A program made the translations under genes and the position numbers. DNA of 64,000 bases from contig NC_087078.1 of the NCBI RefSeq assembly GCF_026151205.1, positions 3,355,175 to 3,419,174 of the forward strand. The letters run 5' to 3'. The notes beneath the pieces are model-generated. The model was not told the DNA's origin. It worked only from the letters and a program-made list of their open reading frames with translations, and made no database searches. The stretch comes from Bolinopsis microptera. Taxonomy: Eukaryota > Ctenophora > Tentaculata > Lobata > Bolinopsidae. Numbering within the stretch: position 1 is the first letter of the stretch; every line of letters begins with the position of its first letter. Of this stretch, positions 17,701 to 60,735 are shown in pieces.

Positions 17701-18485
17701 CAAAATCTCAGTTTTTAGGGTAAAATTTACAAGTAAGTTAATCAATACTCAACCTGTGCAATTTTCTTCGTCTGAGTTATCATCACAATCTTTATATGCG
17801 TCACAAACATACGATTCCCATATACATTGCTCTTGATTCGCGCACTTTACCTTTCCTGCGTCACAATCTGCAAAGGAATAATATTCTGTGGTAGTATGTT
17901 TTTATCGCATCAAAATTCAAAATATAGTATCACAATTGTAAATGAATGGGAAAAGCGAGCGACCGATTTTATTCTCAGTATTATTTTGCATTTGCAGACG
18001 GTCATTTAGTTCGGTCACGGGCCCTAGTTTGTTCGTCAACAAACAGATGTCTTGAAATAAAGTTTCACAAAAATCATTGAGAAACGTTATTGGTCCGGTA
18101 TTTAAATGGTTTAATTGCCGGAGTAAGTCGGTCTGCAGGCAACCGTTATTATTATAGATTTCAGTATTGGAGCGGGTCAATTGTTTGTTACTAGACTTAT
18201 TTCTTTATTTGAAAACTATGACAGGTGACAGATCAGTGGTCTGGGATGAGATCACATCATCTAATCATTGAGTTAAGTACCTAACTGACGAAGAAAAAAG
18301 AACATTTGAAATGCGCAGATCGGTATAAAGCAAAATATTAAACTTTAGTGAAAGATTATAAAAGTTAAAATCAACATTGCATTGAACATGCATTATTCGG
18401 TAATTTTCCTACCTCTTCCAAGAACTGCACTGACTGCCAAAAGCATCAAAGCAGTGACAACAACGATTTTCAGAGACATGTTCAT
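10837..18485 (-). CDS. Secreted mosaic protein: signal peptide-LDLa-PLAT-like-TSP1-LDLa x3 (eight exons, 3' end not found)
   Basis: Exons, in minus-strand order: 18413-18485 (Met plus a hydrophobic stretch with VVVTALMLLAVSAVLG, a clear signal peptide), 17754-17867 (LDLa, six Cys, ends CDDNSDEENC), 16479-16714 and 16200-16308 (one domain split by a phase-0 intron; 'VYIQGSNGET' ... 'GDYRCVFLRTGG' ... 'DGLDLKKVSVQI' resembles PLAT/LH2), 13803-13973 (TSP1: WSEFGEWSVCSAECGGG ... ACPG), 12347-12472, 11386-11511 and 10837-10971 (LDLa; calcium-site ends such as CKDGSDERNC). All borders are AG/GT. All module borders are phase 1, so the frame joins without a stop. Such modules bind ligands or matrix outside the cell; the actual ligand is unknown. 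No stop codon or polyA site was found past 10837, so the gene is probably incomplete here. A second Met lies at codon 3. The PLAT call is less sure than LDLa and TSP1. Confidence 0.85.
12545..13110 (+). pseudogene. Decayed mariner/Tc1-like transposase fragment
   Basis: It lies in an intron of the secreted mosaic gene, on the opposite strand. Across frames it reads 'VTVW.LSWG', then 'IFQQDAPP' (broken by a run of about 17 C at 12741-12758), 'PHYFRESLARLKEHF', then a 'P..SPDLNPTDLF..' run. This is the order of the catalytic core of IS630/Tc1/mariner transposases (FQQDGAPPH ... WPPYSPDLNP). Frameshifts and stops make it non-functional. I saw no terminal inverted repeats. Confidence 0.65.
14096..15200 (+). 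pseudogene. Decayed CR1/Jockey-like reverse transcriptase
   Basis: It is inserted in an intron of the secreted mosaic gene in opposite orientation. Pieces in order: 'FNEYFYEQF' near 14250, 'LNPNKAPGPDGIHGKVLKN' from about 14367, an open frame at 14469-14876 ('FSTGCIPPDWKLALVVPVHK', 'YRPISLT', 'IIYFDFAKAFDSVLHD'), then past a stop the 'YTDDTKIW' motif near 15000. FDFAKAFD and YTDD stand for RT motifs A and C. The 135-codon open piece shows moderate age. The endonuclease part is missing. Confidence 0.8.
15560..15984 (+). other. Unrecognised open reading frame fragment in an intron
   Basis: About 125 codons are open on the plus strand ('KKLVYDLLESTLVKV' ... 'VHKEVSNFVSHLRRQGNF' ... 'RLKDCFYRCLDLPN'), with no convincing ATG. 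Composition looks coding, and similar text continues in other frames to about 16160. It lies inside the mosaic gene's intron between the TSP1 and PLAT-like exons. It is most likely a piece of a mobile element; I cannot name the family. Confidence 0.35.
17343..17571. mobile_element. MITE-like element with ~70-bp inverted arms
   Basis: The left arm (17343-17415) and right arm (about 17495-17571) are inverted copies. Each contains CATGGGTAGAGTGGAC, GCTGCCAGTGTCTCT and AAACAAAAGGAAATGA. The core between them (GGGAAAAGCGAGCGACCGAT ... GCATTTGCGGACGGT) recurs without the arms at about 17946-18006. It sits in an intron. I could not define a target duplication. Confidence 0.7.
17917..18180 (-). pseudogene. 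Repeat-derived coding-like fragment
   Basis: An 87-codon minus-strand frame contains 'NDRLQMQNNTENKIGRSLFP'. The same text, diverged, occurs in the core of the MITE-like element at 17343-17571 ('NNRPQMQNDTENEIGRSLFP'). It is therefore part of a dispersed repeat in the first intron of the mosaic gene, not a host exon. Function is unknown. Confidence 0.4.
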
Positions 18486-20243
18486 TCTCTATTCTGTTAT
18501 TCTAGAAAGTGGAATATTGTAAAAAGGGTAAAAAACGAATTTCAAAGTGGAAGCTTCGTGCCGCAATAAAAATTGAATAAATCGTTTAAAACGCGGTTAT
18601 TGATATTCTGATAATTTTTAATAATTATTTTATAAAAATGGAACCAGCCATCCTAAATGGAAATGATTAAAAGCCTTATAATAACAGTTCGGTCTTCGGA
18701 AAAGTTGAACAAATTAAATTCTTTGTCATAATCATTATATTTGAAAACATTTCAAAGCTACCCAAATGTATTACTCAACAGATTTTCCTGAAGAAAATGT
18801 CCAACTCAAGATCAAAACCCTATTTTAATTGAACCCATTATAATAACAAACCACTATACTAGCCCGTAGTATATAGTAGTACCAGCCAATGTATACTAAA
18901 AATATATACAAACAAAAAATTGTTAAGATAGTAAACAAGTTTTTGTAAGTGAGTAGCCTCTGGTTATAGTAGTACCGTGTGAAATTCTCGACAAAAGTGA
19001 GTTACTAAATTAATGCCCACGAGGCTCAAAGTCCCTGGAGCAGAACTGAATGTTATCCTCTTTAAAGCATGGAGCAGCTCTTTAAAGAGGATAACTGAAC
19101 TCATCGTGTCTCAACAATCGAACTCTACCTTGTTTTATTTTGTTCCAAAAATATCGTATTGTTTAATCTGAAGGTGCTGTTTAATCTTAAATGCCCGGGC
19201 CACAGTTGTGAGGTTTTTAGAACAAATATAACCGGAGCAGTGCAGCTGACGAGAGACTGACTAAGGGGGACCCCAATTATTAAGGGTCAGATCATATCAC
19301 CCCTAATCAAGTTGAACAAGTAGGATAAGGAATAAGTTCAACATATTGTGTTGAGTCCTACTGAACTGAATTTAACTTTGGTTACGCACGCTTAAGTAGT
19401 TCAAGTTGTGGAGATTTAATAAAGTCCGTTATCTAATCTGGTTACGGTGGCGGTATCTGGAAATTACCTGGGAACCCCTGCATGGCATGGCAGGGTATAA
19501 TGTTCATAAACATATATTCCACCGAATAGAGATTCCATGAAACTGAGCGCCGCCTAATAATCTGGAAATTGATAAGAAAGGTCATTGCAGTTGAAGTATG
19601 AAGATTAAATTAGTGAGGAAACAAACCAATTTTTTTGAGATTAGAAATTGCCGTTTGGAGCACAATTTTCTCAAACAGTAACGGACTATAACACGTACAG
19701 AAACACAAGACACAGAAAAAAAACCCTAAAGAAAGTCCACCTATCACTCATGAAGTGGGCCACGAATGCTGACATGTAACAAATGTGACATGTACCAGTA
19801 ACATGTAACAAATCAACTTTCAATCCCTCAAAAATCAGCGAGGCTAAAAGTGAAAACTTTTTTTGTTCAACAATGGAACAAAAAGCGAGAACTCAACAGA
19901 AAATTGAGATTTTACAAACTCATCAAGGCAAGCTTCGGTTGCAAAACATATTTGTCGATCGATCTACGGACACAGAGCAGACTATAAAAAAACTTGCACA
20001 ACTCAGAACAATCTCACAATGAGGGAAAGTGTGCAATACATGAAGCTCATCTCTGATGATAGGATCCAGGAATGGAAGTTCCAGAATTGATGAAGGTCTA
20101 GACTATTATTATAGTGACTCTTCATTTTCTGTAGATGATAGAAATATAATATGAAATTGACTGAAATTAAAAAGTTTTTCTATATGCATGGAAAAAATTA
20201 AGCTCGCAGTGGAAAAAATCAACGGACATCAAGTTTAGCTAAG
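18486..20243. other. Intergenic region upstream of the mosaic gene
   Basis: No exon is supported. The stretch must hold the promoter of the minus-strand mosaic gene, but no clear TATA or initiator stood out. It contains a 16-bp-arm hairpin at 19052-19095 and a decayed TIR-like copy at 19519-19561. Its right edge (from about 20217) is the left part of a repeat split by the LTR element. Confidence 0.4.
19052..19095. repeat. Perfect hairpin, 16-bp arms
   Basis: GTTATCCTCTTTAAAG at 19052-19067 and its exact complement CTTTAAAGAGGATAAC at 19080-19095 are separated by 12 bases. It lies 0.57 kb upstream of the mosaic gene's start codon. Confidence 0.8.
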
Positions 20244-20248
20244 TCGAA
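20244..20248. other. Left 5-bp target site duplication TCGAA
   Basis: TCGAA directly precedes the TG that opens the left terminal repeat, and it recurs directly after the CA that closes the right one (33273-33277). A 5-bp duplication is typical of integrase-mediated LTR retrotransposon insertion. Confidence 0.85.
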
Positions 20249-23200
20249 TGTAAGGAACCTCGAAATTCTCTCTAATTCCGATATTCCTTTTAAAAGATAG
20301 TTAAATGATTTAGATTTATAGTTAACACATTTCCATTGAAGACAGTAATGAACAATTCCAGTCATTTTGAGCTTGAATAATTTTATGTTTAAGATAGGTA
20401 TCGTTAAGTTTAGAAGATCATTGAAATAAGATGTGTATTTAAATTAGAGAAGAGATTACGTTTGATTAACAAAATGAAGCGTTTTGTGTTTAACTAATAG
20501 ACAATTCGACACGGTTGATGACATTCCATGGAGGTGTACAATCAGAACACCACAGAAGATCACCTGATAGCAGACTAGCCTATCGCAGTTTCAGACGAAG
20601 ATCTATGAATTGTGAGAATGGATGATTAGCAGAGCATAGCAGAGTTTAAACCGTGATGAGCAATAACGATCTTGATGAACAATTACTGATTTTGATGAAC
20701 CAGACTGATAGACTCTGGGAAAGTCGGAGGGAGTTAAGAGGGAGAGAGATCGGAGATCCGATGTCTTTCTCGGGTCAGTGCAGTCTTATAAGTTTGTTTC
20801 AGAGCAGTGCTTATAACAGAGTCCAGTATGCCGGTTCCATCCGGATGCTTTAATCTTTCCAGTCATAAGTATTCCAGTAAGTTCCTTGCCTTGATTTAAT
20901 GTGAGCCTTTCATATTAGTATTTTGTTTCGTATAAAATAGTTTGACGTGATTTTTATATCTATATTGTTTATAGTGTCTATTCCCGTTTCCAATATCCAC
21001 TTAAATTCTATACGACACACTGAAGGTTAATTCTATTCAGGTTGCTCTGAACCGACACATCGTGTAGTTTACCGGGCAAGTCTTCCATTCCATAATCTAA
21101 AGAACCGTGACTAAGTTTCCGGGTAGAAGTAAGCTAACGACGATAAGATTCCCGATCTCCCTCTCACTTGAAGGACCATTATACGGATTGAAGTTGTTCT
21201 TGAGGTAAAATCCTTTTCCATTAGTTTTTACATATGAAGTAGGTTTAAGAATATAGTTGGTAATTGTAGTTTCGTGCTCTCAAAATTATATACTTTGTAC
21301 AAACTTCCGTTTCCGTTCCCAGGTCAATAGACCCGAATCTTCCTACTCAGAACGTGCTGCCTTTGCCGATACCTGCTAGATTAATTGATTCTCCGTCATC
21401 AACCGAGGTAATTAGTTCAGTTATAACGTCCGCATAAAATAAGTAGTTGTCTTAAATAGTAAATTTATTAAGTATTATATTATTGTTTATCGAGTAAGAG
21501 AGTATAGACTTACTATTAATACAGAATATGATAATAATAACGTGACCTAGTCAGATACTTCTAACGAAGACTTTCAGTCCTGTGTGTAGAAAGTACCGTG
21601 ACTTATCTACAGTAATTAAGTAAACTTCACCTTTACCTTTATGATTGACCTTTAACTTCTCTTCTATTACTTGATGGCAGCAGCTCACCGTGCATGAGCC
21701 TAATTTCCATATGTACAGTAATGTATGTGTCGAATGTTCAGAGTCAAATGTACAGAGTCAAATGTACAGATCAGTCAAATGTACAGAGTCAGATGTACAG
21801 TAATGTGTGATGTATGTATAATGAGTACTGTGTAAATATCTGTGTAGATATCGTGTAAATATTGCGTCGTCGTTGTCTGAGTACGGCATGAGGTTAGGAA
21901 TTAGATAATATGAAATTGTTATGATGTAGGGACGTGGACTATTATCAAGCAGGGTTTATTTCGCGTTTTGCTGATAAGGTGTGATAGATAAGGTGAGAAG
22001 GTAGGGAATCTGGATAAGGGAAAAGTTCATTTAAGTAGTTGATTGTATTATGTGCTTTGTGCTTGAGTTTGAATTTGATTTAAGTTTCTAATTTTGATTT
22101 GAAATGACGGAAAATTTGGTAATATAGTAATAGTTTGTTCAAATAAGTTACGTTTGTTTGATTAATGAAATTGTTTGCGACTCAGCGCGAGTCTGGAAAG
22201 TTGTTCAGGATTCGATATTTTTGTCATGATAATTTGACATTAAGATATAAAATACGTCGTGCTCAGGTGCCAAAGTGGCCAGAGATTGGATAAGATATCA
22301 TACGTTTAAAGTGCTCACGTAGAGGTAGGGGTCCACGCCTGAACCCCAGTCCAATGAGCACACAGTTTACCCAGCAATCTGATAATACACTCTGTCCAAT
22401 ATAGTTAAGATGTAGACCGTCACGAGCGAGGTGAGCGAGACTAAAACTTGAGTTGTCGAAGAGTCTGAAGTTGTCATGGTGAAGGGAGCACTTAAACATG
22501 AGTTCATTAAGGTACTGGATAATGTCGTTGTGGGTGTTGAATCGGTCAGCATGTATCGATAGTGGACTGACTGCATCGAATAAGAACATAGTGCGCGGGA
22601 ACTGTTCTATGAAACTTCTGATGTGATTATGCAGCAGGACGGCACTCGCTCTGTTTTTCTGGATATCGTTTATGCCAGCACTTATGAGTACAATGTCGGC
22701 TTGCTGAATCGATTCCCGGTGTTCCTTTAAGTCGCGGAGGAAAAATAAGTTTTCCCGGAACGCTATGACAGGTGAACGAAATTGAGAACAGTCAAAATTA
22801 CAGTTTTTGCTGTCAGACAGTATCAGCACTCGTTTGGTCTGGTTCACTTTATGATGGGGTAGAGGTCGCAACTGATGGCTGCTAGATTTTCTGGAATGTG
22901 CCGAGGCCAACTGTCTAAAGGTTAAGCTGATTCGAGGACCTTCAAAATCCGCCTGAGTTTGCGGAGGAACAGCATGGTCAAAAAGGTCCTGCGATTTTCG
23001 CGTCATAGTGTAACAGTCGCCGTGTTGAACTGTCACGGTTTCATCGCGATACTCGCCTGGAGGACGTCTACGAAAAACTAAATCCCTTTTACCCCCCAGG
23101 GAAATGGTAAGTATAGTGCTGTCGGGTACTATACACGATTCATCATCGGAATGAGGAGGTATACACGAGACGTGTGATTCATATTTGGTGATCATGCAGC

Positions 23201-24783
23201 TATTGAAATCCTTATAGTTGATGTTGTTGGTCTTGCACACATCATCAACTGCTACAAGTATTTCAGCAAGGTACGTCTCAGGGTCTAATTGCTTTGCCCT
23301 GTGGTACCCTCCTAAATACTTGTAAGGAGCATCGCCAAAATATGCAACCTTTCTATTCGAGAAAACTTTATCATAGGTTAATTCAGAGTCCAATCTCTTA
23401 AAGTCAAACCTCTTCAGCTGGTCACCAGTTTCGAGCTTGGAGAAGGGCTGTTCCACAGTCTGGACCGGTGTTGGTGGTGCAGGTATTTCGGGGAGGGTGG
23501 TTGTAGGTTGAGTAGGAGGGTGAGCAGAATGGTCACGTAGAGACTGGACAAGGGACTGTGCTTCACTAACGGTGTTCTGGAGGCCGGTCATCGCATCAGT
23601 GGACGATCTCGAAAAAATTTGAGTTAGAGAGATAAGTTTGTCAGTAGTTTCGGTTAATGTAGAGGTACACTTATGACTGTCAAGAATGTGTGCACGTAGC
23701 ATTTTCTGCTTGGATTGCTTGCATAACTGAAGGTCATCTTCAGTCGCTCCAAAGAGCAGCAATTCACGGTCGAGTTGAGGTACAATGAGTTTATCGACCA
23801 ATTCCAAACAGGTTGCAGTTGAGAAACAAAACGGGCGTTCCGTCGATTCAGTCATGTAGAAAGGTAAACTTACGCTTCAAGGAGGGCTACGGTGGACTTA
23901 TGTGGAAGGAGGGGCCCAATTAAATTGGGGCCACCGAGCCTAGGGGTCTCTGTTATCTGTAGTGTTGTAGTCAGTGTGCGTAGTATTTGCGTTTAAGCCA
24001 CGTCACGATGAGCTGCTGCACTGTCGGCTTATCTATTTAGCAGCAAGACTAGATAACAACATAATGTAGGACGTGTGCAGGTTTAAAGTAGTTTCCCGTT
24101 GGTTACGTAATAAATTGTTTCTATTGCCATAGTTAAAAGATATTGCTTTCAGACCATTCGTGACAGTCAAACTGTTGACGGTGAGACTCAGTCAAAGACG
24201 CGTGATATTCCAGCCCTCCTACACTATTTCTTAGAGAGAGACATATCAAAAGGTGATTGCACCAACATAGACTTAGAGTTCCTTTAAATAGGTTATGAGA
24301 AGAATTTCTACCGTTTCAATTAATTAGTATAGTATCAAAAGGTTACTTCCATTGTTATATAACCATTTTTCAATTTAAGAAGGTTTTCTCTCATTAATTA
24401 TACTACCATTAGTCGTTCTATATTTTGTTCTATATTGTCGTTTCAATTTGTGTTAACCCACCAAAATTGAAAGTCTGAATTATAATCACTAACCGCACTA
24501 AATTAAATAAGAAGTAACATGAAACTCTGAATTCTAGCAAAACTATAATTTCCCTAAAACAAAAGTTTTAAGACGCTCAATCGTGGGTTCAGAACCTTCC
24601 GAGACGGACTCTCTTGATATAACCGGGGCCTCCCATGTATAGTTCTAGCCAAGTCAAAAGGAGCTCTAAATAAATAATTTCTTGGAGGAAATAAAGTACT
24701 ACATATCATGGACATGGGAGAGGTGATTATTACCCGGTGCTAGCAACTAATACCTGTCTAATTTGGTACCGTGGTTAATAACA
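20249..24783 (+). repeat. Left long terminal repeat (4.5 kb, complete)
   Basis: It starts TGTAAGGAACCTCG and ends GTGGTTAATAACA. Positions 20249-21499 match 31308-32560, and 24072-24783 match 32561-33272. The intervening 21500-24071 is absent from the right repeat and carries the antisense AlkB-SGNH gene. Imperfect copies of AGTCAAATGTACAG lie at about 21739-21800. A small plus-strand ORF (20653-20853) is kept in both repeats with few changes, but nothing marks it as real. Confidence 0.85.
22263..23855 (-). CDS. AlkB-like 2OG-Fe(II) dioxygenase fused to SGNH/GDSL hydrolase
   Basis: This is an intact 530-codon ORF with an ATG start, antisense inside the left terminal repeat. The N-terminal ~130 residues are unrecognised and end in a Pro/Thr-rich linker. 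Residues ~165-320 look AlkB-like: the HxD iron motif at H235/D237 (PPHSDDE), the distal iron histidine H294 (FDHAVPP), and R308/R314 in PRISLTFR, the usual 2-oxoglutarate-binding strand. Residues ~340-500 look SGNH: SDSK with candidate Ser349 in a modified GDS block, GIND at 394-397, and DGLHLN with D479/H482 as the Asp-His pair. AlkB enzymes oxidatively demethylate nucleic acids; SGNH esterases occur in ORF1 of some CR1-like retrotransposons. A role on element RNA, DNA or lipid is inference. A splice-like GTAAGT lies just upstream of the ATG, so a further 5' exon is possible. Confidence 0.8.
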   Translation of the reverse strand: MTESTERPFCFSTATCLELVDKLIVPQLDRELLLFGATEDDLQLCKQSKQKMLRAHILDSHKCTSTLTETTDKLISLTQIFSRSSTDAMTGLQNTVSEAQSLVQSLRDHSAHPPTQPTTTLPEIPAPPTPVQTVEQPFSKLETGDQLKRFDFKRLDSELTYDKVFSNRKVAYFGDAPYKYLGGYHRAKQLDPETYLAEILVAVDDVCKTNNINYKDFNSCMITKYESHVSCIPPHSDDESCIVPDSTILTISLGGKRDLVFRRRPPGEYRDETVTVQHGDCYTMTRKSQDLFDHAVPPQTQADFEGPRISLTFRQLASAHSRKSSSHQLRPLPHHKVNQTKRVLILSDSKNCNFDCSQFRSPVIAFRENLFFLRDLKEHRESIQQADIVLISAGINDIQKNRASAVLLHNHIRSFIEQFPRTMFLFDAVSPLSIHADRFNTHNDIIQYLNELMFKCSLHHDNFRLFDNSSFSLAHLARDGLHLNYIGQSVLSDCWVNCVLIGLGFRRGPLPLREHFKRMISYPISGHFGT

Positions 24784-24784
24784 T

Positions 24785-24802
24785 TGGAGCAGCGATGCGT
24801 TG
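24785..24802 (+). promoter_or_regulatory. Primer-binding-site candidate
   Basis: TGGAGCAGCGATGCGTTG starts 2 nt after the left terminal repeat's CA. Retroviral-type primer sites begin TGG because tRNAs end in CCA. I could not match it to a specific tRNA, though TGG-AGCAG recalls the initiator-Met type with one base missing. Confidence 0.5.
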
Positions 24803-26087
24803 GGCTCTTAAAATTTTTGCCAAAATTTGAAAAAATCAGAAAGTGGGTTGATACAGATTTATTTCTTAAATCAGTTTTTGTCATTTGATAATTTAACTCC
24901 GACGTTCCAATTATTTAATTTGCAATTAGTTGTTAGCCACAAGGCAAGATAGTTTAGTTTTAAATTTAATGACTGATAATAATAGGTTTGTTGCTAATTT
25001 AATTCAGTTCATTAAGAGAAATAGGAGAAAAGCGACATGAGACTCAATTTGTTCTAACCATTTTTATTTTTTCATTCAGACCGAGGACTAAAATGAATAG
25101 AGTTCGTTCCATCAATCAAGAAAGGACAGTGAACAGGGGTTTCGCAGGATGTGAGTAGTAAAGAAATTTAGATAATAAAGTGTACAGTGGTTTGTTTGTG
25201 TATTGTAAGTTAATGTTGGATACATTGATTGATTATAACTAGGACAGTTAAGGAGATAGTTATGGATAATGAGGATAACAAATGTTACTTTTGTAAGCGT
25301 CAAAATATCGTACGCGAGAAATTAATCGATATTTAAAGAAGTTAACTTGATAAGGAATATCATCTGCCTGCAGATAATTTAAGTCAATTTTATAAGGATA
25401 AGGGAGCCATGTGTCAGTGAATAGTGAGATGGATAACCATTGTCTAGCATAAAGCCGTAAGGTGTCATGTCAGGCCTGTGTGTCACTGGATAATTGCTCA
25501 GCTTGGTTATTTCATGATATTCATCTGCATGTTATGGAAATTAGGGATACAATACCGAGGGGCGGTTTGTAATTAAATTAACTTTTGTATTTCAGACTTA
25601 TGTCAAGAGTAAGTTTTGAATGAGTAAGAATAAACTTTTATTAAAGGAGTATTCATTAAATTTCACGGGGTAATTTGAAGAATTCAGAAATTTAAAGTGG
25701 ATGATGAGGAATTAGTAAGATTGTAATTCGGATAAGTAGAATAAGTTACTGTTAATCACATTAGCTCATTAGCGTTAAAATAGCGAAAATTTACAGTGAA
25801 TTAACAACAATACCATTAGAAATAAAGATGTACCTATAAAATTCGTTTAGTTCCTTGGTCTGTCTAGGTGTCCTTAATTAAGTAATTATTTAAGTTAGTT
25901 ATATAAGTGCTTTACAGATAACGCATCAGAACATAGATGGAACCAAGCCCGCTTCCAGAATATATAAATATTTCACCATGATTGCTGCGTTAGTCACAGA
26001 CTGTGCTGAACTGAGGAAGACCTGTAAGATTTAGAAGAGGGGGTTTTTTAAAAACTTTATTAGTAGTAGCTTACTTTTGAGGAGAAA
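24803..26087 (+). other. Element leader, no ORF recognised
   Basis: This is internal sequence between the primer site and the first plausible start. No gag-like ORF or zinc knuckle is visible. Short frames here are ordinary for AT-rich DNA. Confidence 0.5.
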
Positions 26088-26199
26088 ATGGGGTTAAATA
26101 TTGAGACTAACGCCATGAGGGCCGTAGGAGAGCATTTGGCAGTACATTACCCACGTCATTTAAGCAGACCGTTCTGGCAATCTCCCCAATACCGGTTAT
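26088..26199 (+). CDS. Possible first coding exon of the RT gene
   Basis: ATG at 26088 opens 37 codons plus one base ('MGLNIETNAM' ... 'SRPFWQSPQYRL') and ends at a strong donor, T|GTAAGA. An acceptor with a pyrimidine tract (CTCATTTTTAG) ends at 27027. Joining 26199 to 27028 keeps the RT frame (phase 1 to phase 1) and would replace the first 66 codons of the unspliced ORF. Without splicing the frame stops at 26215. This is inferred from splice signals only. Confidence 0.3.
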
Positions 26200-26828
26200 G
26201 TAAGATGGTATTTTAGAACTATTTATTGTATAATAAAAGAAAACTGTTGAAGCTGATGGTGATCAATCACACTATATTTTTTATTTTTTTCAAGTTCACC
26301 TACAATGTTCAGTGTTCACCTTTCGTATTTGTAAACATATTTTTATTAACACGTTATTTTTTTTACAAAAGGAAATATTGTTGCAAGGGGCCATAACGCT
26401 TACCAGTATAACATCATTACCATTTTTATCAAGCGTACAAGATTTACTAGAGCGTACAAGATTTACTAGTGTCCCTCATTGAAAGTAGGAGCTCCAAACC
26501 TAAGTTGCTTGTTTTGTTAGTGCACCGTTAGCGCAATTTGTTTATTTACATTGATAGTAGTTGTTGCAGCCATAGCCATATATTGATGAAGCCACAGCAG
26601 AGAAGTAAGTTGAAGATATAATGGTTTAGTGTAGAAGTTGAAAAGTGTAGGTATATGAGATATTGTGGCCGGGAAGTTTTGATGATGAGATTAATTATGA
26701 CATTTGGGGAATAGGGATCATGATGATGTTAAAGGGAAAGTGGTGATATAGATACCATAGGTAATATACGGCCGTATAATTGGATAAAAGATGGGAATGA
26801 TGCAAGAAATATATGATGTTACGAGATA

Positions 26829-28973
26829 ATGAGATTATGTTATTATGCGAGATGTTTGAAAAGCGGGATGATTATATTATGGGGAGATCTTAAAAAGCAT
26901 CAAGTTATAGGCCTTGGTAGCTTTACTTCTAATAATATTGGCAATGCTACTACTGATATTAAAGTTTGTTATTTAATTGTGATTGATTTATGTAACCATT
27001 TTAAAACTCGCTCTATCTCATTTTTAGATTTTAAGAAACATAATTTTAAAGTTAATAAGAAACCAGTTAATAAATATTCAGAATTTGTGCCTATTAACTT
27101 TGTATCTAAAGAGTTGGAATATTTTGGATTAAATTGTATATTAAATGATTCTGACGCTATGAAAGTATTTCCGTTTAAGGATCTCAGTAAAAAATTCAGT
27201 AATCCTCAGTTTAGATTCTCGACCTGTTTTAAATATGAGAAGTCAATCCGTGCTGATGTTACCAATTATAAGGAACATGTTTTAAATAATGAGCCTATCT
27301 CTAATGTTAATTGTTTTTGTAGTCATTACAGTGATTTCATCAACCCGAGTGTCGGGCATGTTATCACTGGGAACGTAGATATTGTTAAGAATAATAAACT
27401 TAGAAAATTATTTAAGAAAGGTTACACTTTTATTGAACCAGTTTACAAAAATAAGTTTGCTATTTTTAGGAGTGTTAAATCAGACTTACATAGATATATT
27501 AAAAGTCTGGCAACTAAGTACAGTGTCAGCACTAAATTATTTGATGGTTGGCGAGCCATAGTTTTAGATACTCTTAAACCCAAGATTTTTTCCTCTAAGA
27601 TATTTTGTAAGCGGAATCAGACTGTTATTTCCTCGGAGTTTGAGGACCTTAATGTCCTAAAAGAACATTTTATTATGACTAGCGTAGACAAAGCGAGTAA
27701 TAATGTTTCTTTTGTCTGCAAGAAGTACTATTTAGATAATTTATTGCATGAACTTTCCTCCACTAGTACGTATCAAGTTTCCACAGATTCTGAAGAGGAT
27801 ATTGTAAGAAAGCATGTGCAATTTTGCCAGAAGTTTAAGATTCCGGTGAATGATCTTTCGGTACCATTTATGCACATGTTACCGAAATTCCATAAACCGA
27901 CCTTGGATTTCAGGTACATTGCAGCTGGGGTTAAATCTTCTACTAAAGTTCTTTCTAAAATTCTGAGTGGGGTATTTAAACTGCTTGGTACTACTTTAAA
28001 ATACCTAGATAATTTTAATTTTAAGTTCTTAAACGCTTCTGGTTATTGGATTGTCGACAATAAAGACAGAGTGACATCCAACCTTAATTATCTTAATAAT
28101 GCCTGCTCAGCTAAGTCAGTGTATTCGTTTGATTTTAAGAAACTGTACACCAACCTTCCCCATGATAAACTTATTGAGAAGTTATCATCTTTAATTAAAT
28201 TATGTTTTGAGGAAAAGAAACTTGACTTTATCAATATCAACGACCAGTTTAAAGCTAGATGGTCGGGAGTTAATAAGACTAAATGGTCTTTTACATGTAG
28301 TGACCTGATAGATATGTTTAAATTCTTAATGGATAATATTTATGTTAAGTTTCGAGGTGTGATCTACAGACAGGTAATTGGTATCCCAATGGGATGTGAT
28401 TGTGCTTCCCAGGTTGCAGACCTTTTTCTATACTGGTACGAGCACAATTACATCACATTACAAGTTAAAAACAAGAACCCTGTGGTTCACACTTTGAAAC
28501 ACGCCAGTCGATACATCGACGATTTAACTACCCCCAATATCAACAATAAGACTGTCGATATTATTTGCAATGATATTTACCCCGCAGAGTTGAAGATTAT
28601 AGTCACAAACTATAGCAATTTATCTACGACTTTTCTTGATTTAGACATTAATATTTTGAACAATCGTTTCTACACTAAATTATATGACAAACGACGTGAC
28701 TTTAGTTTTAAAGTCGTTACTTTTCCTAACCTTCGCTCCAACGTACCTGTTAAACCTTCGTATGGAGTATTTGTAGGTGAATTATATAGGATATGCAAAT
28801 CTTCCTCAGTAGTTACTGAATTTATTCATGATGTTAAATTATTAATTGATAAACTGATTACCCAGAATTTTGAACGGAAAATCTTACATAGATATCTTAA
28901 ATTATTTATTAATAGTCAGCCAGCGTGTATCCTCAGACACTGGCATATTTTCACAGTTAATGACTTCATGTAA
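26829..28973 (+). CDS. Penelope-like reverse transcriptase
   Basis: This is an intact 714-codon ORF copying RNA into DNA. Upstream of the RT core is the block typical of Penelope-like proteins in many invertebrates: 'NCFCSHYSDFINPSVGHVIT' followed by NKLRKLFKKG (residues ~168-205). RT motifs: SFDFKKLYTNLPH with catalytic D435, GIPMGCDCAS (~519), and YIDD at 562-565 with D564/D565. Then comes the family's C-terminal 'YDKRRDFSFKVV' and 'YGVFVGELYRICKS' block. No GIY-YIG endonuclease follows, and no LTR-type RNase H or integrase is present. The start may lie on another exon (26088-26199). It lies between long terminal repeats, where a gypsy/copia/BEL polymerase would be expected. It is either the element's own polymerase or a nested insertion. 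Confidence 0.85.
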   Translation: MRLCYYARCLKSGMIILWGDLKKHQVIGLGSFTSNNIGNATTDIKVCYLIVIDLCNHFKTRSISFLDFKKHNFKVNKKPVNKYSEFVPINFVSKELEYFGLNCILNDSDAMKVFPFKDLSKKFSNPQFRFSTCFKYEKSIRADVTNYKEHVLNNEPISNVNCFCSHYSDFINPSVGHVITGNVDIVKNNKLRKLFKKGYTFIEPVYKNKFAIFRSVKSDLHRYIKSLATKYSVSTKLFDGWRAIVLDTLKPKIFSSKIFCKRNQTVISSEFEDLNVLKEHFIMTSVDKASNNVSFVCKKYYLDNLLHELSSTSTYQVSTDSEEDIVRKHVQFCQKFKIPVNDLSVPFMHMLPKFHKPTLDFRYIAAGVKSSTKVLSKILSGVFKLLGTTLKYLDNFNFKFLNASGYWIVDNKDRVTSNLNYLNNACSAKSVYSFDFKKLYTNLPHDKLIEKLSSLIKLCFEEKKLDFININDQFKARWSGVNKTKWSFTCSDLIDMFKFLMDNIYVKFRGVIYRQVIGIPMGCDCASQVADLFLYWYEHNYITLQVKNKNPVVHTLKHASRYIDDLTTPNINNKTVDIICNDIYPAELKIIVTNYSNLSTTFLDLDINILNNRFYTKLYDKRRDFSFKVVTFPNLRSNVPVKPSYGVFVGELYRICKSSSVVTEFIHDVKLLIDKLITQNFERKILHRYLKLFINSQPACILRHWHIFTVNDFM

Positions 28974-31300
28974 TTATAGTGTGTGTGAAGCCCTCTTGTA
29001 ATTCCTTATGCATGTTACCTTTTGCCTTTCTCCTTTAGCCATTATTTCTTTGATCGTATCGGTACAGTTTACTTTCACAGTTTATTGTTAAAATTTCAAG
29101 CGGTAAACCAGTTTATTTTCTATATTCTTTCAGACTTTTATTTAAGTCTAGTTAACAGTTATACATTATTATATCATATTTTATTGATCTAAGGTGTAGT
29201 ATTGCCAGATCCTAGTTCATTTTGTAACGGAGTTTTATACTAACAGGAAACGATGTAACAGAGTCGATATATTTTAATGTTGCCATGGGGTGGCAAGTCC
29301 CCATACATCGCAGTCCGGTAGTTTCATTGCGTCATAATATTAAACTGCAGTATAAATTATTAGCCGGCTAATGGATACGGGGTTCAGAAGATGTTGTGAA
29401 GTTTATTGGGAGGGGGTGCTATAATGGTTGTTGACAAGGTGTTAGTTTTAATAAGTAGATGGGCTTCTTACCTGTTATTTGAGTGTTGTGATACCGCCAA
29501 AAGCGCGCTTGGTGGTTAGAAACACTTCAGATTCAGTACGACCCTTCGAACTTTGAAACTAAGATTGGCAACATGATTTAGCGTAATAGGGTATGCGGAC
29601 GTGAAGAAGAGAAGATATTTGAATTATAATGATACAGAGGGAGATTTGATAAAGGGTATGTTGTTAAAGTTGGCATGGTGGAATCATGCTGGGAAATAAG
29701 GGATACAAATTTTGTTGAGTTTGGGGTAATTTACGTTCTCAAATATGGCTAGTGGCTGCACATTGATTACTGCATTATAAGTATCGTCGGCTGATCGAAG
29801 TATAGCCGCTTAGTAGTATTATATTTTAAAAGTCAAGTATTTTAGGTAAGAGTTGTAATATTCGAATTAAGGATTGTGTAATTGATTAAGTAATTGTACG
29901 AATTAAGGATATAAAACGGCTAATCGAAGAATAGCCAATATTAGAGTATCGTATTTTAATTTTTTTGGCAAGTTTATTTTGTCGTGGGTGTAGTTAGAAG
30001 CTTAAACGTGTATAGTATGTTTAAAAGTGGAGACCGTAAAATTCGCAGTTCGCACAGCACAACTATAATAATTAACATTGTCCGGTGATGTTGATTAACT
30101 CCACATAAATTCATCAATTTCAATAAATAAATATTTGCCGACACTTTTGGGTCACTTTTGTGAGAAAATGTGCTATAGAAATTTTATCGGTCATAACATG
30201 TAATTTATAATCACTAGCAGGAACCCGTATAACCCTAAAGTGGTGTCAAGACTCAAAAGACTAAAATAATTATTACCTATTTAATTCGCGTTTTTGACAC
30301 CACTTGGGGGTCCAAGTTTTGGGCTCTAAAATCACTATTCCTTGGCCAATTTTTATTTTTTATGCTGATTTGAAAGCCATTAAAGAATTTGACCCAGTAA
30401 AAAAAAAGTTTCAGTTGTATATCTTTTACGGTTTTTGCGGAAAGTCGCGTTAAAATTGATGCCGTGGTGTCAGTAAAATGGCACGGAAAACTATCGTCTC
30501 GCTTTATATATAGTAAGATTAAGGTATGGTGTATAAGTGGAGTCAGCCGTAGTAATTGTTATTTATTCATTTTAACTTATTAATTTTATTGAGGCTTGGA
30601 TCTAACGCTCTTAGTCTTAGATGTTGCCAAGTGTTGCAATATTACATGGATGAACATATTGTACTCAATATTTATGAAGTATGGCATTCAAGGTTCACAT
30701 TCAAGGTTAACATTACCATGAGGCTAACATTACCTAGGTACACGTTAACAAAGACTATAAGTAGAGAGAAGTGTATACCTCTACTAAACATCATATTCCG
30801 CACTGTTCTCTCAAAACTCAGATATACCAGAATGGGCAGATCCGGACAGATCTGTTCACATTCCCAAACACAAGCTCGAGCTCTGGCCAGGGTACATGAC
30901 TTGTTGCGCCTTAAGACCATGTATCGAGAGTATTTATATTTTTTTAATAAAATAAGATACAAATTTTAAAAAAAATATATATTTGTATCCGTAAAAAGAC
31001 ACTAAGCACAGAATAAAATAAGTTGTTTTAAAAATGAGATTAATAAATAATATAGACCATCAGTATTTCGTGTTTAGTGCCTTTCAAGGCATTATTAACA
31101 GGTATGTTTGCTTCATTTTCGAAATAGATTAACCGAAGAAATACTTTCAAATAAGTATTTGATTAATTTTTTCGAAAAGTTTATAAATTATATTACGCGA
31201 GTTTAAATGGTGTATGGATGCTTAAAAATGTGTAAAGTTTTTTTAGTAGTATATTTTCTAGTCATTTAAGTTTAATCGACGAGGCCGTCTCTATTTCAGC
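28974..31300 (+). other. Element interior 3' of the RT gene
   Basis: No recognisable gene lies here. A 137-codon frame at 30556-30969 is open on plus with an overlapping minus frame, and neither resembles a known domain. An inverted pair AAGTGGTGTCAA (about 30238) and TTGACACCACTT (about 30294) could form a hairpin. Confidence 0.45.
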
Positions 31301-31307
31301 AGGGAGG
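31301..31307 (+). promoter_or_regulatory. Polypurine-tract candidate
   Basis: AGGGAGG directly abuts the TG of the right terminal repeat. Its position and purine content fit a plus-strand primer site, though it is short. Confidence 0.5.
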
Positions 31308-33272
31308 TGTAAGGAACCTCGAAATTCTCTCTCTAATTCCGATATTCCTTTTAAAAGATAGTTAAATGATTTAGATTTATAGTTAACACATTTCCATTGA
31401 AGATAGTAATGAACAATTCCAGTCATTTTGAGCTTGAATAATTTTATGTTTAAGATAGGTATCGTTAAGTTTAGAAGATCATTGAAATAAGATGTATATT
31501 TAAATTAGAGAAGAGATTACGTTTGATTAACAAAATGAAGCGTTTTGTGTTTAACTAATAGAAAATTCGACACGGTTGATGACATTCCATGGAGGTGTAC
31601 AATCAGAACACCACAGAAGATCACCTGATAGCAGACTAGCCTATCGCAGTTTCAGACGAAGATCTATGAATTGTGAGAATGGATGATTAGCAGAGCATAG
31701 CAGAGTTTAAACCGTGATGAGCAATAACGATCTTGATGAACAATTACTGATTTTGATGAACCAGACTGATAGACTCTGTGAAAGTCGGAGGGAGTTAAGA
31801 GGGAGAGAGATCGGAGATCCGATGTCTTTCTCGGGTCAGTGCAGTCTTACAAGTTTGTTTCAGAGCAGTGCTTATAACAGAGTCCAGTATGCCGGTTCCA
31901 TCCGGATGCTTTAATCTTTCCAGTCATAAGTATTCCAGTAAGTTCCTTGCCTTGATTTAATGTGAGCCTTTCATATTAGTATTTTGTTTCGTATAAAATA
32001 GTTTGACGTGATTTTTATATCTATATTGTTTATAGTGTCTATTCCCGTTTCCAATATCCACTTAAATTCTATACGACACACTGAAGGTTAATTCTATTCA
32101 GGTTGCTCTGAACCGACACATCGTGTAGTTTACCGGGCAAGTCTTCCATTCCATAATCTAAAGAACCGTGACTAAGTTTCCGGGTAGAAGTAAGCTAACG
32201 ACGATAAGATTCCCGATCTCCCTCTCACTTGAAGGACCATTATACGGATTGAAGTTGTTCTTGAGGTAAAATCCTTTTCCATTAGTTTTTACATATGAAG
32301 TAGGTTTAAGAATATAGTTGGTAATTGTAGTTTCGTGCTCTCAAAATTATATACTTTGTACAAACTTCCGTTTCCGTTCCCAGGTCAATAGACCCGAATC
32401 TTCCTTCTCAGAACGTGCTGCCTTTGCCGATACCTGCTAGATTAATTGATTCTCCGTCATCAACCGAGGTAATTAGTTCAGTTATAACGTCCGCATAAAA
32501 TAAGTAGTTGTCTTAAATAGTAAATTTATTAAGTATTATATTATTGTTTATCGAGTAAGACGTGTGCAGGTTTAAAGTAGTTTCCCGTTGGTTACGTAAT
32601 AAATTGTTTCTATTGCCATAGTTAAAAGATATTGCTTTCAGACCATTCGTGACAGTCAAACTGTTGACGGTGAGACTCAGTCAAAGACGCGTGATATTCC
32701 AGCCCTCCTACACTATTTCTTAGAGAGAGACATATCAAAAGGTGATTGCACCAACATAGACTTAGAGTTCCTTTAAATAGGTTATGAGAAGAATTTCTAC
32801 CGTTTCAATTAATTAGTATAGTATCAAAAGGTTACTTCCATTGTTATATAACCATTTTTCAATTTAAGAAGGTTTTCTCTCATTAATTATACTACCATTA
32901 GTCGTTCTATATTTTGTTCTATATTGTCGTTTCAATTTGTGTTAACCCACCAAAATTGAAAGTCTGAATTATAATCACTAACCGCACTAAATTAAATAAG
33001 AAGTAACATGAAACTCTGAATTCTAGCAAAACTATAATTTCCCTAAAACAAAAGTTTTAAGACGCTCAATCGTGGGTTCAGAACCTTCCGAGACGGACTC
33101 TCTTGATATAACCGGGGCCTCCCATGTATAGTTCTAGCCAAGTCAAAAGGAGCTCTAAATAAATAATTTCTTGGAGGAAATAAAGTACTACATATCATGG
33201 ACATGGGAGAGGTGATTATTACCCGGTGCTAGCAACTAATACCTGTCTAATTTGGTACCGTGGTTAATAACA
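31308..33272 (+). repeat. Right long terminal repeat (1.97 kb, internally deleted)
   Basis: It matches the left repeat end to end except for loss of the equivalent of 21500-24071. At the junction (about 32560) the repeat reads GTAAGA|CGTGTG. The left copy has GTAAGAGAG before the missing part and TAGGACGTGTG after it, so the two breakpoints share only GA. This removes the AlkB-SGNH gene from the right copy. Confidence 0.85.
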
Positions 33273-33277
33273 TCGAA
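33273..33277. other. Right 5-bp target site duplication TCGAA
   Basis: It follows the closing CA of the right terminal repeat and equals 20244-20248. Confidence 0.85.
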
Positions 33278-33395
33278 CTTAACGAACGGACTTTAATTGA
33301 ACGGACGCGGACATTAAATAATAATATAAAATGAACGCTAGGCCCTAGGCGGGGCTCCAGCGTTGCAATTAATGTCCCTTCAATTTTTCGGGCCT
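33278..33395. repeat. ACGGAC-rich palindromic repeat, right half of the LTR element's target
   Basis: It contains GAACGGACTTTAATTGAACG and a long imperfect palindrome (CGGACATTAA ... GAACGCTAGG ... CCAGCGTT ... TTAATGTCC). Joined to 20217-20248 it aligns with the reverse complement of 36781-36890, which has no insertion. Confidence 0.7.
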
Positions 33396-33926
33396 TATTT
33401 GTAATTTGAACTTTAAATTAGTAAATTATAACGAGCGTGCTAAATCACTCTACAGTCGATCTTCGAGATTGTTCTAGAAGGGCCCCCGACAGTAGAAACC
33501 AACTTCAATCGATGTATTTTCGGACGCTGATTCCGAATCACCCCCCATGACATAGGGTTAAAATGCTCCCCTGACGAGATATTGGCGAAAAACTTCTCGA
33601 TCACGTGATATGACCGTACAAGGAAGTTAGTCTAATTTCTCGTTAGGGTTAGGTTTTCAGCATATGCTTGTGTTAAGGATTGGGTTAGTATATATATAGG
33701 GTTAGGGTTGGGATCAGATTAGAGGGTTAGGGTTTCGAATAGTCGTTCAAGACCAGCTAGAGAACGGGTTGAAAAAGTCACGTGACAGTCGAGTGTAGAG
33801 TGATTAATCATCATCCAAATTATAAGGTCCGATAAGGAACGTGCGATGAGCAATAGACTAGCAATTAGACCAGCAAATAGACTAGCAAGCAATAGACTAG
33901 CAAGCTAGATAAACTTAAAGATCTGA
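33396..33926. other. Intergenic with degenerate TTAGGG-like motifs and short tandem repeats
   Basis: About 33645-33740 has several GGGTTAGGG-like words but no regular array. About 33850-33905 has repeats of AATAGACTAGCAAG. No gene is seen. Confidence 0.5.
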
Positions 33927-34304
33927 TCAAGTCCTGGTGTAATTTAAGGATAGGAGAAGGGGGCTGTCTCGTATGATACTTTGGTTAATTTTGCAGTCTG
34001 TCTGCAGGTCTTGCTCTTTAAGACATCGATTAGTGAAGCCCACATGAGACACCAAAAACCGTTGTACCTTCTGCAAGGTTAAATTGAAAGGAATTCGGTA
34101 GGCCGGCCAATATATCGCGTTAATTGTCGTGCTGATACCGCATCCAGGGATAAAGTCTGTGCCAATCCAGGTCCGCTCGTAGTACTCCGTATTATATTTA
34201 TATAGCTTCACTCTCCAGCAGGAAGGGCAAGTCTCAGCTCCAGCCACTCTCCAAGTTGCATGAAGGCTATATGGCTCCCAATTCCCATCATCTGAAAGGA
34301 CTTT
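33927..34304 (-). CDS. Unrecognised exon-like ORF (125 codons, Cys/Trp-rich)
   Basis: The frame opens right after an acceptor-like TTGAATCAG|AAAG and runs 125 codons to a TGA. Composition is protein-like: 'WRVAGAETCPSCWRV', 'RTWIGTDFIPGCGIST', 'FTNRCLKEQDLQTDC'. There is no ATG, so it would be a terminal exon of a minus-strand gene or a fragment of a mobile-element protein. No upstream exon or polyA signal was found. I do not recognise the family. Confidence 0.4.
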   Translation of the reverse strand, partial: KVLSDDGNWEPYSLHATWRVAGAETCPSCWRVKLYKYNTEYYERTWIGTDFIPGCGISTTINAIYWPAYRIPFNLTLQKVQRFLVSHVGFTNRCLKEQDLQTDCKINQSIIRDSPLLLSLNYTRT

Positions 34305-34323
34305 CTGATTCAATAAAATGCTT

Positions 34324-34446
34324 AGGGGTCGTTCACATATTACGTAATCATTTTTTGGAACATTTTTGCCCCCCCCCCCCCCCCCCCCTCCATAATCAGT
34401 TTTACAAATAGCTATTGTGTAATATCAATATGTGAACGATCCCCCC
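34324..34446. mobile_element. Short MITE with GGGGTCGTTCACATATT-type inverted ends
   Basis: The left end AGGGGTCGTTCACATATTAC is mirrored at the right by AATATGTGAACGATCCCCCC. A run of about 18 C lies inside. Its length of about 123 bp and lack of coding capacity fit a non-autonomous DNA element. Superfamily not determined. Confidence 0.6.
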
Positions 34447-34723
34447 TATGTGATCCGCGATAGCTTGCAACTACAGTTATATCTTTACATGATCTGAGTA
34501 GCACCATTGTATGCCATGGGATCATGAAATAACACGAAAATCGGTACCACATGATCTGTTCATCGACATACAGCAGGGTGTCGTAATTATTGGCGCGTAG
34601 ACAATTTTGCGTGAAATTTTAGCTTACCCAAGCTTTTAGAAACGATCATTACTTGACTTTGAGGGTCACTTTCCTATGCTGATGCAGTGTTGATTATTCG
34701 AGAGATAATCCTTTAAACTACAG

Positions 34724-34873
34724 TTTTATCAGTTATTTAGAATATATATTCGCATGGCAATTGATCGGTGTAGTTGGTGTTGTACACACTGCACTGATAA
34801 TGATATCACGTTGTACGTGTAATGTAAATATAGTGTGGATAATGCGAATATATATTCTAAATAACTGATAAAA
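34724..34873. repeat. Inverted repeat, ~31-bp arms
   Basis: TTTTATCAGTTATTTAGAAT... at 34724-34754 is complementary to 34843-34873 (...ATTCTAAATAACTGATAAAA). About 88 bp lie between the arms. It is possibly a MITE and lies just upstream of the tRNA-like sequence. Confidence 0.75.
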
Positions 34874-34936
34874 TTATATTCCACACAAAGCATGAAATTG
34901 TGCTGTATATGAGTGGTGATTTCGCTCTGAGAATCA

Positions 34937-35009
34937 GGGTCAGTAGCTCAATTGGTAGAGCAAGAGACGCGAAATCTCGAGGTTCTGGGATCATTCCCCA
35001 GTTGTCCCT
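34937..35009 (+). pseudogene. tRNA-like sequence (pseudogene or SINE head)
   Basis: The 73 nt fold as a cloverleaf: acceptor GGGTCAG/TTGTCCC (one T-T mismatch), D arm GCTC...GAGC with the A-box-like TAGCTCAATTGGTAGAGC, anticodon stem AGAGA/TCTCG, and a perfect T stem CTGGG/CCCAG. The T loop is ATCATTC, not TTCRANY, so the B box is poor. The base before the would-be anticodon CGA is G, not T. It is therefore probably inactive. I saw no SINE body repeated here. Confidence 0.55.
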
Positions 35010-35554
35010 AGTTTTTCAGAGTTAATCATCACATATAGACAGCATGAGAGTAGGCCTGGCCATCTCGTAGTGAGAAACTACAGTTTAGTCTAAAAACGAA
35101 GTCCGAAAGAAGAAAGAAGCTAAATTGTAAACGTCGTCGATAATTACGACGAAAGAGAAAAATTTGGATTATTGGACTTTAAATTGAATGTTGAAGCTTC
35201 CAGTTCCCCTGAATTCCGGTATGCGTCCGCCCGACTATATTTTATTGCGTCAGTTATGAAAGAGAGCTTTTAGTTTTATAAAAGCTACAGTTTTCTATAT
35301 GTTTCGCTATCGGTTGAGAAGCTGTGCACTTTATTAGTCTAAAGAATAATTTCAGGAAAAATTCACCGAAAAAATTACACATAAATCCCTTACTCCTCCA
35401 TAAAATTAACCAAGTGGGAAATCAACCCTTTAAAATTAAATAACGGCCTTATAAAATTAAATAATGGGTTTTGAGGTACATCAACACTGAACACAAAATT
35501 CTAAAATTAAGAAAAAGTTCAAACGATCGTCTACAGACCAGTTTTTGAATTTTT

Positions 35555-35593
35555 AAGTTGTAACATTCAAGTTGAACTTGAATGTTACAACTT
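35555..35593. repeat. Near-perfect 39-bp palindrome
   Basis: AAGTTGTAACATTCAAGTT (35555-35573), one spacer base, then its exact complement (35575-35593). It lies about 18 bp outside the left end of the TIR element at 35611. Confidence 0.85.
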
Positions 35594-35610
35594 TTCTGTA
35601 TGTTAAGTAA

Positions 35611-43990: not shown

Positions 43991-44264
43991 TATTTCTTAA
44001 TTCACATTCAGCTTTTTGAATGAGTCAGGGAACAAACAAGTTATTTATTAATCCATTAGGTTACTTATGAATCACATGGATAACCAATTAATATCCACCA
44101 GATTGAACATGGATATTTCGCTTTTTCTTGAGATTATTTTCAATTTTCATGCACCTTTAACTGTTGATTCTCAGAATGTATTATCTTATTATCGGAGCTT
44201 GTTCAAATTTGATTAGATGGGTATTCAACCGGACACAGTTTTAAAGAATTAACGTGACTTTGAT

Positions 44265-44478
44265 AACGCTACCAACCAAAATCCAACAATTCTCCCATAA
44301 CCTCTGTAATATTTCTACCAACCAAAATCCAACAATTCTTCCATAACCTCTGTAATAACGCTACCAACCAAAATCCAACAAGTTTTCCATAACCTCTGTA
44401 ATATCGCTACAAACCAAAATCCAACAATTCTCCCATAACCTCTGTTATATCGCTACGGACCAACCAAAATCCAACCGT
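44265..44478. repeat. Tandem repeat, ~48-bp unit, about 4.5 copies
   Basis: The unit is built from CTACCAACCAAAATCCAACA followed by ATTCTCCCATAACCTCTGTA. Copies differ by a few bases, so it is not newly amplified. Confidence 0.85.
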
Positions 44479-44751
44479 AATCCTTTCTCAGAGAGAAAGC
44501 GGCAGCCGGCACACATAATCAAACAGTAATGCTACTCAGAGGTGTGGTGCTAACTGAAAGTTGAGAGAGTGTAAAACTTACCCCTGGCTCACTTACCGGT
44601 CACTTACCCCTGGCTTGGGAGCTCCTGTTATAACCTAAATACATGCCCGCGTGTACTGGCCTAATTATGAGCTTAAATTGAAGTGGTTACTGGCCAAGAT
44701 TATTCCTAATGCTTTGTGCCCATTTGAGTACTGGTTTGAGGTGGAGTCACG

Positions 44752-49129: not shown

Positions 49130-49341
49130 CACGTGCTCAGGATCGTGCCCACGTGCTCAGGATGTCTGTATTGTGCCCCGATTTGTGGAGTCACGTGGTC
49201 TGTTAGCAAGTTGAGTTGCTAGGTCACGTGGTGTGTTACCATGCAGAGTTGCTAGGTCACGTGGTGTGTTACCATGCAGAGTTGCTAGGTCACGTGGTGT
49301 GTTACCATGCGGAGTTGCTAGGTCACGTGGTACAGCACGTG
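49130..49341. promoter_or_regulatory. Array of eight CACGTG boxes
   Basis: CACGTG starts at 49130, 49150, 49192, 49225, 49258, 49291, 49324 and 49336. Four of these sit in a 33-bp tandem repeat (GTTGCTAGGTCACGTGGTGT + 13 bp) and the first two in a 20-bp repeat. The palindrome is kept in every unit. CACGTG binds bHLH-zip factors. No confident gene starts nearby, so this could be an enhancer, a promoter or simply a tandem repeat. Confidence 0.5.
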
Positions 49342-60521: not shown

Positions 60522-60735
60522 AATGATACATGTACAATGATACATGTACAATGATACATGTACAATGATACATGTACAATGATACATGTACAATGATACA
60601 TGTACAATGATACATGTACAATGATACATGTACAATGATACATGTACAATGATACATGTACAATGATACATGTACAATGATACATGTACAATGATACATG
60701 TACAATGATACATGTACAATGTACATTGTACATTA
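60522..60735. repeat. 14-bp tandem repeat AATGATACATGTAC, about 14 copies
   Basis: The units are almost identical, so expansion is recent. Each contains the palindrome GTACATGTAC or TACATGTA, so the array can fold into many hairpins. The edges merge into GTACATTGTACATTATACAT. Long open frames here are artefacts of the 14-bp period. Confidence 0.95.

Follow-up and report, generated by a model that had tools for sequence, protein, structure and literature searches.

Why should a long terminal repeat (LTR) carry an enzyme? In a 64,000-nucleotide stretch of the Bolinopsis microptera genome (NC_087078.1, positions 3,355,175 to 3,419,174; hereafter the window), a reverse-strand frame at 22263-23855 runs through 530 codons with no internal stop, and a sequence-only reading had described it as an intact fusion of an AlkB dioxygenase and an SGNH hydrolase encoded within an LTR. 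Our data leave the intact frame and its location inside a real LTR standing, but the frame is not the LTR's own gene: it is almost certainly the first ORF (ORF1) of a LINE, a non-LTR retrotransposon with two ORFs, and a 3'-truncated copy of this LINE sits within the left LTR of an LTR element unrelated to it. The features concerned are:

20244-20248: target site duplication TCGAA, left (by eye)
20249-24783: left LTR of the host element, split by the LINE fragment (self-comparison of the window and by eye)
21494-21499: GTAAGA, 3' junction of the LINE (junction sequence)
21500-24065 (-): LINE fragment comprising the 5' part; its 3' truncation lies about 58 nt short of the ORF2 start codon (comparison with genome copies)
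21500-22262 (-): ORF1-ORF2 spacer of the LINE, without a long frame
22263-23855 (-): ORF1 of the LINE, 530 aa (ORF translation, Pfam, AlphaFold2)
23856-24065 (-): LINE 5' untranslated region, without the 19-20-bp monomers of the other copies' 5' ends
24066-24071: GTAGGA, 5' junction of the LINE (junction sequence)
31308-33272: right LTR, unbroken, the empty site (self-comparison of the window and by eye)
33273-33277: target site duplication TCGAA, right (by eye)

The TG...CA ends of the LTRs and a PBS-like TGG at 24785 (both by eye), together with the TCGAA duplication, identify the host as a genuine LTR-type element. Its two LTRs align in two blocks, 20249-21499 with 31308-32560 (99.4% identity) and 24066-24784 with 32555-33273 (99.9%), and the 2.57-kb segment at 21500-24065 is extra in the left LTR and absent from the right. 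ORF1 lies wholly within this segment, so the right LTR is without it. At the junctions, GTAAGA and GTAGGA may be a 6-bp duplication, mismatched at one base, or may reflect microhomology. Rfam, searched with window positions 18000-36000, gave a tRNA (34937-35009, +) and a single match below threshold. That the LTR itself encodes the enzyme, on behalf of the LTR element, would agree with the position of the frame inside a real LTR; this reading is nevertheless rejected as virtually impossible, because the frame is missing from the sister LTR and the nine other copies examined are ORF1s of LINEs.

The LINE was recognised in the window's own assembly of 264.65 Mb in 232 contigs, in which a search with ORF1 scored at least 81 matches (788 candidates). 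Ten places, the window's included, span residues 1-530 at 98-100% identity. LINE homology in the window extends over 21495-24068, at 97.7-99.8% identity to the nine other copies, one of which is split in two blocks; the flanks of these nine gave no match to the window's LTR at E<=1e-10. An independent 2.57-kb element is ruled out, as the nine copies run on into common 5' and 3' sequence. Compared with copy c2_7.13, five of the eight other copies match unbroken over about 6.9 kb, and c10_3.09, c3_12.1 and c5_13.9 are deleted or rearranged. The roughly 6.9-kb element has at its 5' end 19-20-bp monomers, variable in number between copies. Eight of the nine copies end with AATAAA followed by an AAAC-rich tail, and the ninth with an A-run. 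In c2_7.13, ORF2 begins 828 nt after ORF1 and has 1,219 codons; it matches an Exo_endo_phos endonuclease, RVT_1 and, weakly, a PHD finger, so that the downstream ORF has the APE-type endonuclease and reverse transcriptase of a two-ORF APE-type LINE. An ORF2 match lies downstream of ORF1 in eight of the nine copies, the ninth, c3_12.1, being deleted there. In a search for target duplications, words of 7-8 bases are shared in five of the nine copies, none located at both ends; the rearranged copy c5_13.9 has a 21-base word, at distances of 60 and 114 bases from its two ends, and three copies have no shared word. Judged by architecture only, the LINE appears CR1/L2-like.

The protein encoded by ORF1 consists of three parts:

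ORF1 residues 13-108: N-terminal helices and a long helix (predicted structure)
ORF1 residues 133-318: AlkB dioxygenase domain (Pfam and predicted structure)
ORF1 residues 339-507: SGNH hydrolase domain (predicted structure, weak Pfam match)

The proposed fusion is borne out by both profile search and structure prediction. PF13532 (AlkB) matches ORF1 at E 3.2e-19 (70.3 bits, cut-off 31.2), and PF13472 (SGNH) at E 2.3e-4 with 22.1 bits, under its cut-off of 32.9; AlphaFold2 predicts both domains with confidence, the SGNH assignment thus being weak by Pfam and clear by predicted fold. In the model a single long helix (residues 49-108) stands ahead of the AlkB domain. An NCBIfam search of ORF1 gave no match. 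All catalytic residues named in the sequence-only reading are present, namely H235, D237, H294, R308 and R314 in the AlkB domain and S349, N396, D479 and H482 in the SGNH domain.

Among public proteins we found 55 relatives of ORF1 at E<=1e-5 (7,996 candidates scored), including one annotated Mnemiopsis leidyi protein with 54% identity. A profile search added one more, likewise from Mnemiopsis (P0057, SGNH-endonuclease-RT), which may be a mis-joined gene model, since its endonuclease-RT part matches separate frames of about 1,200 aa in the Bolinopsis assembly. Conservation was assessed in two sets of 28 rows each: alignment A1, with 27 of the 55 public relatives and the window's ORF1, and an own-genome set of ORF1s chosen from the 81 places, from which L040 and L041 were left out because they are without AlkB. 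An iron triad HxD...H and a 2-oxoglutarate motif RxxxxxR are the signature of ALKBH2/ALKBH3-like AlkB dioxygenases. The residues of this signature (H235, D237, H294, R308, R314), as well as Y178, Y180 and E239, are invariant in 28/28 rows of A1 and 28/28 own-genome rows, and so are S349, G394 and N396 of the SGNH domain, which matches PF13472 at E<=0.01 in 27 of the 28 rows of A1. H482 is missing once across both sets. The SGNH catalytic Asp, D479, is replaced by Asn in six and Lys in one of the own-genome rows, and by Asn in one row of A1.

The sequence-only reading had suggested a look at other copies for signs of selection, and the window's family (family A) is under purifying selection. 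In copies picked by long open frames, a choice that favours apparent constraint, pN/pS in family A (9 copies, 36 pairs) is 0.25 overall, with 0.15 in AlkB, 0.09 in SGNH and 0.62 in the N-terminus. Counting variants over ten copies, with the window's, gives 15 nonsynonymous and 23 synonymous differences where 78% nonsynonymous are expected (P 4e-7); the ratio is 3:9 in AlkB (P 1e-4) and 2:5 in SGNH (P 0.006), and the N-terminus, at 7:4 (P 0.26), shows no constraint in these ten copies. Of seven smaller groups with few differences, six have whole-frame values of 0.24-0.59, and F has 0.98. These figures speak against a family A that is decaying neutrally, and we reject that reading, the exceptions being F, the N-terminus of group C (1.55) and that of family A itself. 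Between families, synonymous sites are mostly saturated.

Diverged LINE families of the same genome also encode an AlkB-SGNH ORF1. Among the best 44 of the 81 ORF1 places, 25 are followed on their own strand by ORF2 at a distance of 361-1,828 nt and 19, the window copy being one, are without a downstream ORF2 among the matches listed; 13 of the 38 ORF2 places listed are without an upstream ORF1 from these best 44. In families B, E, F and G an ORF2 frame follows ORF1 at the one locus examined per family, and in F the distance is 571-601 nt at nine of nine places (by eye). A weak PHD match at the start of ORF2 occurs in families A, B, E and G, as fits CR1/L2 lineages, and none in F. In a search with the ORF2 reverse transcriptase, the named entries among the best 120 of 3,419 matches were limited to two proteins from Mnemiopsis and a few with generic names. 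Across the assembly PF13532 has at least 151 matches (150 of 587 candidates scored), host genes included, every match listed exceeding the cut-off. PF13472 has at least 150 at E<=1, out of 424 candidates. Many of these lie in frames of 478-523 aa, absent from the AlkB matches listed, and some of these frames lie directly upstream of another ORF2 type; SGNH ORF1s without AlkB probably coexist with the AlkB-SGNH ORF1s.

The history of the module seems to differ from that of its elements. In unrooted trees of five families and five rows, hence small trees, F pairs with G for ORF1 (97/97), and E pairs with G for ORF2 (100/100), leaving F with A and B. The identities agree, F and A sharing 32% in ORF1 and 56% in ORF2, and F and G 45% and 42%, respectively. 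From this conflict we conclude that ORF1 has probably moved between LINE lineages, an exchange that has been described for other Jockey-superfamily ORF1s (PMC4120745). Several long frames of the assembly hold the two domains in the reverse order, with AlkB after SGNH. Among them the frame C10 (3,388 aa) begins with SGNH and then AlkB, its AlkB matching ALKBH3 best, and contains further along a PIF1-like helicase (PF05970, 2e-22), which we take as pointing to a Helitron; C10 is probably a Helitron frame. A second pairing of the two domains, inverted and in such a frame, makes it less likely that they were fused by chance.

Which base would this AlkB act on? In a profile search of solved structures, ALKBH3 (3e-28) and ALKBH2 (2e-23) were the best relatives, followed by ALKBH8 (2e-4), and up to E 1 there was no ALKBH5 or FTO chain. 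By profile and fold the domain therefore groups with ALKBH2/ALKBH3, which repair m1A/m3C, and not with the m6A erasers. Paired aromatics contribute to the base pocket of ALKBH2/ALKBH3-like AlkB proteins. ORF1 has such pocket residues in 28/28 rows of A1, with Y178 and Y180 and with E239 two residues past the iron Asp, as judged from alignments to ALKBH2 and ALKBH3. E239 aligns with E175 of ABH2, whose E175A mutant is reported to reach about 10% product with m1A and 5% with m3C (PMC12295762). Together, the best relatives and this glutamate favour m1A/m3C chemistry, as far as can be judged from the sequence. An m6A eraser that shields the element RNA from surveillance by the host, the role proposed for an orchid Gypsy AlkB, has a precedent in the Phalaenopsis retrotransposon AlkB, for which m6A demethylation in vitro is described (PMC9289625); given the relatives found here, it is distinctly unlikely for ORF1.

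ORF1 shares the SGNH fold with catalytic Ser, Asn, Asp and His with the esterase-type (Type IV) ORF1s. The transposon-specific His of the zebrafish ZfL2-1 esterase (H191) is absent: the corresponding position, four before N396, is Ser in 27/28 rows of A1, with His in one, and in 28/28 own-genome rows. The ZfL2-1 esterase (4c1b) was not among the profile matches up to E 1 nor among the 50 fold-search matches listed. Liposome binding and weak activity are described for it (PMC3905857), and by analogy the SGNH domain of ORF1 might behave similarly at membranes.

We propose a joint mechanism, to which we give just short of an even chance. ORF1p would multimerise via its N-terminal helix and bind the element's RNA within the RNP; the ALKBH2/3-like domain would oxidatively remove m1A and m3C from this RNA; ORF2p would then copy a clean template; and at membranes the SGNH domain would anchor the RNP or remodel it, a role suggested before for the ZfL2-1 esterase. 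Both m1A and m3C modify the Watson-Crick face and hinder reverse transcription, and their removal would hence benefit ORF2p. The R2 reverse transcriptase used in OTTR is described as impeded by m1A, and AlkB treatment, which removes m1A and m3C, as causing a modest change for intact tRNAs and a larger one for 3' tRNA halves (PMC12140624). Our computations show the sequence and gene order, the fold as predicted, the conserved sites, the conflict between the ORF1 and ORF2 trees and, for family A, purifying selection; multimerisation, RNA binding, substrate, timing and membrane role we infer. LINE identity and mechanism combined are the best explanation overall, and one that we hold to be evenly balanced between right and wrong.

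The pocket is also compatible with DNA repair. AlkB might act during target-primed reverse transcription, repairing the cDNA or the nicked target DNA, or it might edit host DNA marks at the site; the titles of the solved ALKBH2/3 relatives name alkylated DNA as their substrate, and the probable Helitron frame, for which an ssDNA intermediate is expected, has an AlkB of the same type. However, ORF1 proteins of known LINEs are presumed to package RNA (PMC3905857), and we consider a role on DNA rather unlikely. The AlkB fold might also be a nucleic-acid-binding module only, its catalysis irrelevant, that fills a gap in esterase ORF1ps, since those in RepBase are reported to be without a structural RNA-binding domain (PMC3905857). 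Invariance of the iron and 2-oxoglutarate ligands in both sets exceeds what binding alone would demand, and makes this very unlikely. Extending the demethylation mechanism beyond LINEs, transposons with an exposed single-stranded stage (LINE RNA, Helitron ssDNA) may repeatedly have acquired an ALKBH2/3-type demethylase paired with an SGNH hydrolase, a lesion-repair kit of their own that would clear base methylation where it blocks replication, and LINE lineages may trade it as a module; we offer this tentatively and with considerable doubt.

The role of enzymes in LINE ORF1p is presented as an open question in PMC3905857, where RNA engagement by esterase ORF1ps is left to speculation. A conserved demethylase in ORF1p suggests a direct and testable answer, namely that the enzyme may service the RNA template: the AlkB-SGNH pairing might let a LINE clean its RNA before copying. 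One may then ask whether retrotransposition is limited by methylated bases in the element's RNA, be they natural damage or host defence. The fusion is seen here in a ctenophore, and ctenophores have been argued to be the sister lineage of the other animals (PMC10232365). Neither esterase ORF1s nor an AlkB in an LTR element is new. A literature search on AlkB in LINEs and other mobile elements found no report of AlkB in a LINE, a passing mention being possible; the main text of PMC4120745 contains neither 'AlkB' nor 'dioxygenase', and the word esterase is absent from the text of PMC9289625.

Human ALKBH2 and ALKBH3, the nearest solved relatives, are cellular proteins outside mobile elements and not fused to an esterase, in contrast to the AlkB of ORF1. 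The AlkB of plant RNA viruses (Alphaflexi-, Betaflexi- and Closteroviridae; PMC9289625) is likewise carried by a replicator with an RNA genome, but is described there as part of a viral replicase, without reverse transcription; in a BFVD fold search, viral replicases were among the first matches, with TM-scores near 0.3 against the full-length query. The Phalaenopsis Ty3/Gypsy elements (PMC9289625) are retrotransposons that likewise bring their own AlkB demethylase. They are described, however, as LTR elements with an m6A-active AlkB in a separate ORF, a description that sets the orchid protein apart from the LINE fusion found here. With the Type IV ORF1p of CR1/L2 elements such as zebrafish ZfL2-1, as described in PMC3905857 and PMC4120745, ORF1 shares the SGNH domain, the helical N-terminus and the position 5' of an endonuclease-RT ORF2; it differs in the Ser at the transposon-specific His position and in the AlkB domain that stands between helix and esterase.

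Numerous open frames of 478-523 aa in the Bolinopsis microptera assembly encode an SGNH domain and have no AlkB match among the matches listed, and some of them lie directly 5' of an ORF2 of another family, as does the frame at C11:1890603, ahead of C11:1891768. Since such frames occur, some of them beside a different ORF2 family, the gain or loss of AlkB in LINE ORF1s could be datable. A related public protein of 774 aa, P0056, reads as a PHD-like zinc finger followed by AlkB and then SGNH, and carries His at the transposon-specific position of its SGNH domain (the site of ZfL2-1 H191); judged from its sequence, it possibly represents an intermediate architecture.

The window itself contains two further frames:

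26829-28973, plus strand: reverse transcriptase frame, 714 aa (RVT_1, 1.9e-5; YIDD motif)
54092-56905, minus strand: putative endonuclease-reverse transcriptase frame, 937 aa, by reading of the translation

The 714-aa frame, which we take to be Penelope-like, lies between the two LTRs of the host element, and the 937-aa frame reads as the product of a second LINE type. Tandem arrays with units of 14 bp (60466-60787), 33 bp (49190-49354) and 46 bp (44258-44487) are also present.

Elsewhere in the assembly, SGNH domains occur in frames with helicase-like domains:

L040 585-3542 and L041 540-3596, both minus strand: frames of about 1,000 aa, helicase/NTPase-like domain (weak matches) fused to SGNH
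C10:16874000-16877400 (L052 1-3401) and C10:16880800-16884000 (L053 1-3201): open frame of 3,388 aa

In the two shorter frames the SGNH domain is 44-49% identical to that of the window ORF1, its Asn and His are substituted, and it is perhaps a captured LINE fragment. The 3,388-aa frame begins with SGNH and then AlkB, with a PIF1-like helicase further along, and SGNH likewise precedes AlkB in further long frames on contigs C3, C9 and C12. The C10 frame is probably a Helitron that carries both ORF1 enzymes, in reversed order compared to the AlkB-SGNH ORF1.
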